Shown here piece by piece: positions 55,791-58,662 of a stretch of 64,000 nt of DNA. Positions within the stretch are counted from its first letter, which is position 1, and each line of letters opens with the position of its first letter. A model generated the notes under the pieces. The model ran no database searches. It saw only the letters and a list, made by a program, of their open reading frames with translations, and was not told the DNA's origin. The position numbers were made by a program, and so were the translations under genes. Where the stretch lies: contig JAJRQZ010000033.1 in assembly GCA_024279935.1 (NCBI GenBank), forward strand, positions 1 through 64,000, given 5' to 3'. The DNA is from Bacteroidota bacterium (lineage in GTDB: Bacteria > Bacteroidota > Bacteroidia > Bacteroidales > F082).

Positions 55791-56429
55791 ATGCACAAAA
55801 TCCTTGTTTCATTGATAGCCATTCTCTTTTGCCTGGGTGGCTTGAGGGCTCAAACATCTTTTGATGGCCACACCGGCACACAAACGGGCTGGCACAGGGG
55901 TCAAACACCTGAAGGTTTTGATCTTTTGCCCAGCAAAATGATCTTCACACAACGCTTGTTATGGGGAAGAAAAGGGCTTATGCGGAATTTCAACCGCTTC
56001 GGGCTAACTCCCGAAAAAAGGAAAAATGAACTAAAAGCAAGGAGGACTATGCTCAAGGCCCACCAAATAATGGGCTTCGCAACCATAGCCTCTATGTTGT
56101 CGCAGGTAATTGTCGGCGAGCGATTATATGACGGGAAAACAAATTTGAAAGATGCCCACGAGTTTTTGGCAGGGCTCACTAACATCACCTATATAACCAC
56201 TGCCTCCTTCTCGCTTTTTGCACCTCCTCGGATGTTGGACGAACCCAAGGGCTATAGTAACCTAAAAGTCCATAGGATATTGGCCATAGTGCATATATCA
56301 GGAATGATAGCAACAAACATCCTGGCAGGCCTGGTGGAAGACAACCCCGGGCTTAGGCCATATCATGCAGCTGCGGCAATAACAACATTTGCCTCCTTTA
56401 CGGCCGCAATGATCGTAATTAAACTATAG
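55791..56429 (+). CDS. Four-helix membrane protein with haem-like histidine pattern, function unknown
   Basis: A 212-residue protein with signal peptide (ILFCLGGLRAQ), a soluble N-terminal part to about residue 85 (LLPSKMIFTQRLLWGRKGLM; RRTMLKAHQIMG), then four transmembrane helices (about 91-108, 122-143, 160-180, 200-212). Each begins at a His: 91, 123, 161 (and 168), 202. Alternating topology places His91 with His161 on one side and His123 with His202 on the other, as in cytochrome b561-type dihaem proteins. I do not recognise a named family. It stands alone between a glycosyltransferase and a lipoprotein gene. Confidence 0.7.
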   Translation: MHKILVSLIAILFCLGGLRAQTSFDGHTGTQTGWHRGQTPEGFDLLPSKMIFTQRLLWGRKGLMRNFNRFGLTPEKRKNELKARRTMLKAHQIMGFATIASMLSQVIVGERLYDGKTNLKDAHEFLAGLTNITYITTASFSLFAPPRMLDEPKGYSNLKVHRILAIVHISGMIATNILAGLVEDNPGLRPYHAAAAITTFASFTAAMIVIKL

Positions 56430-56610: not shown

Positions 56611-58662
56611 ATGATTAATAAAAAAGTAGGCCCGGGATTTTTTTTGATGCTTCTACTGACTTCTTTTGCTGTCTGGTCTTGTCGAAAAGATTTCAGCAAA
56701 ATCTCCGTTGCCGATTGGCAAGCTGAACTGGCAGCCCCTTTCATCCACACTACTATTGTCTTAGATAACTTATTTCCAGACGATTCCAATCTTGTAACCC
56801 TGGAAGACAGCTCATTGGTATATTTTTATTTTAAGGATTCCGTTTTCAGCCTATCGGCCGATACCGCCCTCGACTTAACGGATGATATTGTTGTTGACCA
56901 AGGTTTTTCGCTGGGCGAATTGCTGATGGGCGACTTCGGTTTCGATACTGCGCTCGCGATGACGGAAATCCTACCTTATCTAGATCAGGCAATTCAGGAC
57001 ACCCTATTGAAATATGACGGCCAGCTAACTTATTTCCCCCCGTTTTCCATCCTCGAACCGGTCGTTGTGGGCTCCGAGCCTATCGAAGACTTTATACAGC
57101 TTGAGTTTTCCGATGGGAAGATGATAGTTACCGTAAGCAACAGCCTTCCTGTCCCTTTGAACAATATCGATTTTCAGTTATTGGATGAAGTCGGCCAAAA
57201 TATAATTACCGAAGTAGTGATAAACGAATTGCCGCCCTCAGCACAGGTTTCGGATACCACCTTGCTTATAGGAACGACGCTTGGGAATGAGTTCTCGTTC
57301 AAGATACTGAGCCTTGAGAGCCCCGGCAGCTTTCCCGACATGGTCCTTATCGACCTAAGCCGGGGATTGGGGTTCGATTTACTGGCCACAGGCTTGAAGG
57401 TTGTTGGCGGCCAGGCAAGAATAAGCGACCAGATAATGTATTCCGATATGGAGATGATAGATTTCGGCCTCGACCCTGAACAGTTAAAACACATTTCCTT
57501 CATGAGCGGGAATTTTGTTTATAATTTGAGCTCGGAAGTCAATATCGATATAAATGTAAATATCCAGCTGCCAACGGCATTGATCGACAATGAAATACCG
57601 CAACAGGAGTTTATTATAACCGCCAACGGCAGCACCCAGCAAACCTGGGATGTAAGCGGAATGACTGCCGACCTGACAACTGATGCTGAACAGCCTTACA
57701 ACAGGATGCCGATAGAAATAATGCTTACGGTTTTGCCTACCGATAATTTAGTAACATTTGATTCATCGGATAAGATAAACGGTTTTTTTAGCCTGGAACA
57801 AATAAAACTTGACTTCGCCGATGGTTATATGGGCAAACAAACGGTGAATATCTCACAGGATACCTTCGACCTGAACTTCGATTTCTTGAAGCGGTTAAAG
57901 GGTGAGCTGATACTGGAAGAGCCTTCAATTACAATGAGTTACGTAAACAGTATTGGAGTCTCTTTTAGGATTTCGACAGAATTCCTGGCTTATAATTCCG
58001 AAACCGGCCAATCGCATTATCTCGAAATGGACTCTGTGGACATAGAGGTTCCTGCCCAGATAGGCGATTCAGTGGAGGGTGCGATAATTATAGACAAAAC
58101 CAATTCGTCGATAGTCGATTTCCTTGCCATCCGTCCCGACAGGATAATTTATTACGGTGGCGGGATAAGCAATCCGGAAGGGGAGAATCTGAACTTTATT
58201 ACCCAAATCTCAAGACTTACCGCTGATGCGGAGATTAAGATCCCGTTAATATTGCGTGCCGCCCACCTTAATTTTGTCGATACCCTCGGCTTTTCGGCCT
58301 CCTCCGACGGATTTCCGATCCGGGAAGGAACAATGAAGCTGAATATCATGAACGGCTTCCCTTTCGACCTTACGATGAGCATGGTCCTGACGGATTCCAT
58401 CAGCGGGCAAATACTCGACAAGCTTACCTTCGACGAAATTGCTTCTGCCGAAGTTGATGATAAGGGAAAGGTCATCGGCAAGAAAGCATCGGAGATCACC
58501 GTTGGTTTCTCCAAGGAGTTCCTAACCAACATGAAACTGTCGAACCAGGCTCTTCTTGAGGTAGAAACCTCGACCTTCGGACAGGGTGAGGTGCCGGTTG
58601 TTCTTTATTCCGATTATGAGATAGATATTACAATTGCCTTTTCGGGGAAGATAAAACCTTGA
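56611..58662 (+). CDS. Large lipoprotein paired with a DUF5723 protein
   Basis: A 683-residue lipoprotein. Signal peptide with lipobox (FAVWSC, Cys24). The rest is beta-strand rich and acidic, with repeated patterns such as 'DSVFSLSADTALDLTDDIVV' and immunoglobulin- or jelly-roll-like segments. No enzymatic motif. It ends 1 nt before the next gene, an outer-membrane DUF5723 barrel; such a lipoprotein-barrel pair suggests a surface complex. Function unknown. Confidence 0.75.
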   Translation: MINKKVGPGFFLMLLLTSFAVWSCRKDFSKISVADWQAELAAPFIHTTIVLDNLFPDDSNLVTLEDSSLVYFYFKDSVFSLSADTALDLTDDIVVDQGFSLGELLMGDFGFDTALAMTEILPYLDQAIQDTLLKYDGQLTYFPPFSILEPVVVGSEPIEDFIQLEFSDGKMIVTVSNSLPVPLNNIDFQLLDEVGQNIITEVVINELPPSAQVSDTTLLIGTTLGNEFSFKILSLESPGSFPDMVLIDLSRGLGFDLLATGLKVVGGQARISDQIMYSDMEMIDFGLDPEQLKHISFMSGNFVYNLSSEVNIDINVNIQLPTALIDNEIPQQEFIITANGSTQQTWDVSGMTADLTTDAEQPYNRMPIEIMLTVLPTDNLVTFDSSDKINGFFSLEQIKLDFADGYMGKQTVNISQDTFDLNFDFLKRLKGELILEEPSITMSYVNSIGVSFRISTEFLAYNSETGQSHYLEMDSVDIEVPAQIGDSVEGAIIIDKTNSSIVDFLAIRPDRIIYYGGGISNPEGENLNFITQISRLTADAEIKIPLILRAAHLNFVDTLGFSASSDGFPIREGTMKLNIMNGFPFDLTMSMVLTDSISGQILDKLTFDEIASAEVDDKGKVIGKKASEITVGFSKEFLTNMKLSNQALLEVETSTFGQGEVPVVLYSDYEIDITIAFSGKIKP

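Follow-up and report, generated by a model that had tools for sequence, protein, structure and literature searches.

A candidate diheme b561-like cytochrome of Bacteroidota and its linkage to YceI and Rieske genes

The present analysis shows that a gene of the window (the whole 64,000-nucleotide stretch of Bacteroidota DNA that was analysed) encodes a membrane protein, P0001, that, as judged from its sequence, is very probably a diheme b561-like cytochrome, whatever its role, and probably a transmembrane diheme electron carrier serving the periplasm. Conservation of five histidines, an internal repeat of two hairpins, the similarity of several relatives to cytochrome b561 and, in most loci, linkage to a gene for a YceI lipocalin, often together with a gene for a Rieske protein, are observed here.

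Homologues are found in 33 of 395 genomes of the phylum (E ≤ 0.001) and in 3 of 41 relatives, the window's own genome counted; further draws, which overlap one another, gave 15 of 244 genomes (class of G003), 15 of 194 (order of G371) and 8 of 98 (class of G079). A Fibrella plasmid record also carries a homologue, annotated there as "hypothetical protein". Merging the repeats of one place leaves 52 distinct loci. A fragment (G619:C2) and a weak match in G388 are uncounted, and L135 (G357), which has YceI and Rieske genes, lies outside the 52. Alignment A1 holds 34 rows, without L034 (its contig is shared with L002) and without six places lacking a locus; the truncated L089 was excluded from the tree, the hairpin test and profile A2.

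Protein, helices and conserved histidines

The gene is a single open reading frame with an ATG start. It is real and under purifying selection, the dN/dS ratio against the nearest homologue being 0.17 overall and 0.10 across residues 46–212. The scan for promoters and terminators stayed at chance level, and Rfam gave no match. The positions of all features are collected in Table 1.

Table 1. Coordinates in the window of the P0001 gene and of the features of its product
Feature	Position	Strand	Basis
CDS, 212-residue b561-like membrane protein P0001	55791..56429	+	Homologues; dN/dS 0.17
Sec-type signal peptide, residues 1–20 (LRA before Q21)	55791..55850	+	Hydropathy; cleavage inferred
Conserved pre-membrane motif LPxxMxxxxRxxWGxxGLxR, residues 46–65	55926..55985	+	P47, W58, G62 and R65 at least 98% identical, 52 rows
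Helix 1, residues 74–113; start basic and amphipathic (R77, E80, R84, R85), in the membrane from H91 on	56010..56129	+	AlphaFold2
H91, proposed axial ligand, periplasmic-side haem	56061..56063	+	His 52/52
Helix 2, residues 117–142	56139..56216	+	AlphaFold2
H123, proposed axial ligand, cytoplasmic-side haem	56157..56159	+	His 44, Lys 7, Gln 1 of 52
Helix 3, residues 157–182	56259..56336	+	AlphaFold2
H161, proposed partner of H91	56271..56273	+	51/51; falls on H91 when the hairpins are aligned
H168, additional invariant His, two turns into helix 3, level between the proposed haems	56292..56294	+	51/51; axial levels
Helix 4, residues 186–211	56346..56423	+	AlphaFold2
H192, proposed partner of H123	56364..56366	+	50/51; falls on position 123 when the hairpins are aligned

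The N terminus of P0001 is a hydrophobic segment that ends in LRA-Q and by hydropathy resembles a Sec signal peptide, in agreement with the sequence-only reading. By a rough scan, a Met and then a hydrophobic stretch stand upstream of the core in 45 of the 52 homologue rows, and AQ follows the stretch in 37 of those 45. With such a Sec-like N terminus, the segment preceding helix 1 should be periplasmic. Residues 21–90 are basic, with 14 Lys and Arg vs 5 Asp and Glu, and the periplasmic position of this basic segment in the proposed topology is contrary to the positive-inside rule. The soluble segment in front of the helices had been described as rich in conserved-looking Trp, Arg and Gly. This holds for W58 (52/52), G59 (49/52), G62 (51/52) and R65 (52/52), but W34 is located, together with H27 and H35, in a variable linker, where both histidines are already changed in the nearest homologue.

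The AlphaFold2 model of P0001, built from the 34-row alignment A1, has a mean pLDDT of 82.4, with values of at least 90 at 132 of the 212 residues and below 50 at residues 1–29. The four helices proposed earlier are all present in the model. The histidines, which had been placed at the helix starts, are found four to six residues inside helices 2–4, while the histidine of helix 1 opens the membrane part of a longer helix, in which R84 is conserved in 52 of 52 rows.

The histidines of P0001 are at positions 2, 27, 35, 91, 123, 161, 168 and 192. The ligands previously assigned to 91, 123 and 161 are thus in place, but residue 202, to which the fourth had been assigned, is a serine, and the histidine of helix 4 is H192. 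H168 had been overlooked, and is as strictly conserved as the other conserved histidines. Exactly five alignment columns contain at least ten histidines over the 52 rows, namely 91, 123, 161, 168 and 192. The suggestion that the four proposed ligands might be invariant among homologues is borne out by H91 and H161 and, with a single exception, by H192, but not by H123, which is histidine in 44 of 52 rows; the denominator is 51 at H161, H168 and H192, where one of the rows is truncated. In residues 46–212, 15 of the 167 columns are at least 98% identical among the rows with a letter (P47, W58, G62, R65, R84, L88, H91, G109, Y134, P145, P146, H161, H168, M172 and H192).

All seven rows with Lys at position 123 keep H192 (L010, L011, L012, L017, L015, L016 and L023). 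They fall in two separately supported clades of a tree whose deeper nodes are unsettled, with one or two origins, and these relatives possibly have a Lys-ligated haem or have lost the haem. The row with Gln at 123 is L091 (G249:C1:5807971-5808498), a second copy in its genome that lacks the operon. It has Gln at 192 as well, being the sole row without H192, and retains the histidines at 91, 161 and 168, such that one of the proposed haem sites is lost. The joint loss of H123 and H192, a single case, supports their proposed pairing.

Proposed haem pairing and relation to cytochrome b561

The alignment of the profile of hairpin 1 with that of hairpin 2 by hhalign gives a score of 57.5 and a probability of 97.6, and the internal repeat equates H91 with H161 and position 123 with H192. 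The best of 100 column-shuffled controls scores 17.6 and the reversed control 11.9, the controls being of these two kinds, with no unrelated membrane-protein hairpins among them. The distance to the short turn is 24 residues for H91 and 23 for H161, 8 for both H123 and H192, and 16, midway, for H168. From these matched axial levels it follows that the two predicted sites would be some 23 Å apart along the helices, with an invariant histidine between them. We have also considered H168 as the partner of H91, which is unlikely by the axial levels (16 vs 24 residues, taken without coordinates). Two turns past the proposed ligand, Thr is the usual residue in helix 1 (position 98, 48/52), helix 2 (130, 28/52) and helix 4 (199, 45/51), and the equivalent position of helix 3, two turns past H161, is always H168.

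The earlier proposal of two bis-histidine sites, one formed by helices 1 and 3 and the other by helices 2 and 4, is supported by the conservation of the histidines, the repeat, the double loss in L091 and the b561 profile matches of the relatives. An alternative is that the conserved histidines of the four-helix bundle bind a non-haem metal such as copper or zinc, with perhaps a role in metal handling. Haem binding is indeed a prediction from sequence; M172 (50/51) is located four residues after H168 (51/51) in helix 3, and in L139 (6416-10757; G755) the cytochrome–YceI pair is followed by genes for an RND-type transporter (ACR_tran) and an outer-membrane efflux protein. However, the arrangement of the histidines in two level-matched pairs over alternating helices favours haem, as do the internal repeat and the matches to b561 profiles, and of the neighbour families listed (25 of 136), none for metal transport is represented by more than two proteins, such that we regard metal binding of this kind as very unlikely.

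The sequence-only reading knew of no named family with this layout. The layout is in fact that of the b561 core, and the helices alternate as in human Dcytb. P0001 itself reaches no Pfam family above the cut-off, and its core gives nothing at E ≤ 0.01; no match to Cytochrom_B561 (PF03188) is listed for it at E ≤ 10, and there is none to prokaryotic cytochrome b561 (PF01292). Membership of DUF2306 (PF10067) was rejected, with 14.8 bits vs a gathering score of 31.6 (E 0.032), and NCBIfam gave weak matches to unrelated families only. Among 34 members scanned at E ≤ 1, Cytochrom_B561 is matched by 15, prokaryotic b561 by 14 and ferric reductase by 8; the corresponding numbers for 51 core sequences at E ≤ 0.01 are 15, 8 and 8. 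The best relative scores 28.0 bits on PF01292 (E 2.2e-6) vs a cut-off of 30.1, which is reached by 0 of the 34 scanned members. In single scans of eight chosen relatives, five are above the PF03188 gathering score of 23 (29.8, 26.2, 26.3, 25.1 and 25.5) and three are below, the five all coming from one clade of the tree. Over 148 genomes of the phylum, PF03188 gives matches in four, one of them over the cut-off, and every one of these matches is a member of the P0001 family.

In the best Cytochrom_B561 match, helices 1–2 of the family fall on the second half of the profile. The A1 profile places R84 on R152 and H91 on H159 of human Dcytb, at an overall E of 1.4, and this match is gone with profile A2. 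The ranges of the structural alignment with Dcytb (80–212 on 39–179) would put residue 91 on H50 and residue 192 on H159, provided that neither end contains a gap. Owing to the repeat, the b561 helix on which helix 1 falls differs between profile matches. In the available text of the Dcytb study, R152 binds ascorbate, the haems are held by H50/H120 and H86/H159, and the haem edges are 15.5 Å apart (PMC6123691).

Comparison of the predicted fold by VIA-align gives Z scores of 10.4 for plant b561 (4o6y; 3.3 Å, 128 residues), 9.5 for human Dcytb (5zle; 3.5 Å, 127 residues) and 13.1 for the designed protein 4D2 (1.9 Å, 97 residues). Several designed and soluble bundles are ranked above b561, and a Z near 10 is common for helical bundles. 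Foldseek finds no match in the PDB at E ≤ 0.001, soluble helical bundles outranking b561, with 4o6y as a weak match among helical bundles (E 1.4). A PDB sequence search with P0001 found no match, and searches with two single relatives matched no b561 structure. The best PDB matches of the profiles are two designed haem proteins, m4D2 (E 0.0088 with A1, 0.036 with A2) and 4D2 (E 0.33 with A1, 0.77 with A2), and are too weak for use. The fold evidence alone is thus weak, and the case for a diheme cytochrome is made by conservation, repeat and profiles jointly.

The likeness to b561 and Dcytb (PF03188; 4o6y, 5zle) consists of the four-helix core, one conserved histidine per helix and the alternating pairing. 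Whereas b561 has six membrane helices, P0001 has four long ones and a signal-peptide-like segment. The LPxxM...WGxxGLxR motif in front of the helices and the invariant extra H168 are further differences, and counterparts of K79 and K83 of the b561/Dcytb ascorbate site were not traced in the family. The protein 4D2 (PDB 7ah0) likewise has, as far as the available text describes it, four helices with one histidine each and two haems across opposite helices (PMC10400981), but it is a designed soluble protein with the haems much closer together, and the likeness is one of plan only.

Neighbouring YceI and Rieske genes

A same-strand YceI lipocalin gene is present within the fetched stretch in 47 of the 52 loci, mostly directly after the cytochrome gene with a small gap. 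A Rieske gene is present in 37 loci, all of which also have YceI, and is missing in 15, of which 10 retain YceI. The usual order is Rieske–cytochrome–YceI, with cytochrome–YceI–Rieske in some loci (e.g., L016) and cytochrome–Rieske–YceI once (L088), and this variation strengthens the linkage. The YceI and Rieske models behind these counts derive from loci of this same set, and the flanks range from several kb down to about 0.2 kb where a contig ends; some absent Rieske genes (L086, L087) may reflect contig ends. Direct Pfam searches confirmed one YceI partner and two Rieske partners, and in 10 of 20 genomes the adjacent place is a match of the Pfam YceI model. The CxH...CxxH motif is found in 16 of the 16 Rieske partners examined, most of whose leaders look twin-arginine-like or lipoprotein-like by eye, and the single partner used for a search has a b6f Rieske protein as its closest match (8hn2, 2e-13). 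In the literature searched, no paper joins YceI, Rieske and cytochrome b561, and the recurring Rieske–cytochrome–YceI gene set, of which no precedent was found there, is the new element.

On the Fibrella plasmid, the annotation reads Rieske, hypothetical protein and YceI, with a DNA starvation/stationary phase protection protein and a catalase further on. In two Spirosoma-group loci, L036 (7956-12722) and L151 (6455-8516), ferritin-like/Dps-type and catalase genes lie a few genes past the Rieske–cytochrome–YceI set. These neighbours, in the two Spirosoma-group loci only, hint at oxidative stress. Genes for type II NADH dehydrogenases adjoin the operon in two distant lineages, at L042 (4350-5669) and L050 (4203-5525). 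The wider neighbourhood was scanned with 116 of the 152 listed neighbour proteins from 23 of 24 loci, proteins longer than 900 residues being excluded. A wider conserved neighbourhood was rejected, as the commonest among the 25 of 136 families listed are DUF4835 and ECF sigma factors with 4 proteins each, and ferritin-like proteins with 3.

In the window, the P0001 gene is flanked by an opposite-strand glycosyltransferase gene and, downstream, by a gene for a 683-residue protein (56611-58662, + strand), and the layout in the sister genome is the same. The 683-residue protein has no Pfam match at E ≤ 0.001, an N terminus like a lipoprotein leader, and the same place in the sister genome, where a DUF5723 protein follows. 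Neither a YceI nor a Rieske gene is adjacent at the window locus or at the nearest homologue. The two small Rieske proteins of the window's genome adjoin bc-type cytochrome b genes, as read by eye. Elsewhere in this genome (L056 1-1755 and L059 121-1737, both minus strand), a Rieske domain is fused ahead of a thiamine-diphosphate enzyme, and a neighbouring Rieske domain is fused ahead of a glutamate-synthase-type domain.

It may be asked whether the gene of the window's genus is the leftover of a lost operon, with its ancestral role gone. The YceI and Rieske neighbours are absent at both copies seen in the genus; 2 of 5 congeneric genomes carry the gene, the window's own counted, and the three without it are 87–92% complete. 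Moreover, there is no YceI in the window assembly (96.5% complete), and each of the other four congeneric genomes has at least one. However, all five conserved histidines are retained, the dN/dS ratio over residues 46–212 is the low value given above, and the synteny is identical in both genomes. A leftover is therefore quite improbable, and the window cytochrome is an orphan under selection.

Proposed electron relay and its meaning

The linkage of these genes in many relatives is suggestive of a small envelope electron relay. In the mechanism that we infer, the signal peptide and a short periplasmic segment would be followed by four membrane helices arranged as two similar hairpins, with the periplasmic-side haem on H91 and H161 and the cytoplasmic-side haem on H123 and H192. 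The electron source would most likely be the menaquinol pool or another inner donor, and the electrons would cross the inner membrane from haem to haem and exit on the periplasmic side. The likely acceptors in most relatives would be the products of the adjacent genes, i.e., the YceI lipocalin and, often, the Rieske 2Fe-2S protein, the latter acting as an added electron carrier in many members. By analogy with LcoA-BcnA, YceI would hold an isoprenoid quinone, which, once reduced again, would quench lipid radicals of the envelope. The quinone or lipid-radical role, taken alone, is a plausible analogy to which we give somewhat less than an even chance.

The available text on LcoA-BcnA describes a cytochrome b561 and a YceI lipocalin of Burkholderia cenocepacia that limit membrane lipid peroxidation, a system occurring in Burkholderia and other Proteobacteria, and its authors suggest that the cytochrome re-reduces the lipocalin-bound quinone (PMC9113575). 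The likeness is that a b561-like cytochrome gene adjoins a YceI gene in most loci of the P0001 family. The differences are that the family has no member at the PF01292 cut-off (0/34), that a third gene, Rieske, is often present, and that the pairing with YceI is broken in the window's genus.

On a bolder and less likely reading, the P0001 family would be the membrane-embedded core of a redox module of three parts, so far undescribed, composed of a Rieske protein, a four-helix diheme cytochrome b and a YceI quinone carrier. The module would move electrons between the inner-membrane quinone pool and periplasmic quinones or lipid radicals, as a minimal Rieske/b couple on a b561 fold, with the invariant histidine between the haems as a relay or proton-coupling group. 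A variant of the diheme electron carrier inferred above, our best reading, with overlapping odds, is that the diheme b cytochrome and the Rieske protein constitute a minimal quinol oxidase. In it, as in bc complexes, one electron of a quinol would reduce the Rieske cluster and the other would enter the haem chain, and YceI would deliver or store the quinone. In the cytochrome b of bc complexes, two helices bear two ligand histidines each. P0001 is unlike it in having one ligand-level histidine per helix, H161 and H168 being just 7 residues apart. The variant is in line with the adjacency of the Rieske gene in 37 of 52 loci and the cluster motif of the 16 partners examined, with the closeness of the searched partner to the b6f Rieske protein, with the type II NADH dehydrogenase genes near L050 and L042, and with the resemblance of the fold (Z 13.1) to 4D2, which is described in the available text as a diheme bundle designed from bc1 cytochrome b (PMC10400981). 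It is opposed, besides the placement of the ligands, by the 15 loci that lack the Rieske gene, 10 of them with YceI, and by the window's genome, which has neither partner adjacent and has its two small Rieske proteins beside apparent bc-type cytochrome b genes. We thus consider a minimal quinol oxidase rather unlikely.

The proposed relay would offer a likely function for a family left unnamed in databases, as the "hypothetical protein" of Fibrella illustrates. The partnership of b561 and YceI, known from the defence of Proteobacteria against lipid peroxidation, would be extended to the window's phylum, in scattered lineages and frequently with a Rieske protein as a third member, and how electrons reach quinones or lipid radicals outside the inner membrane becomes a testable question.
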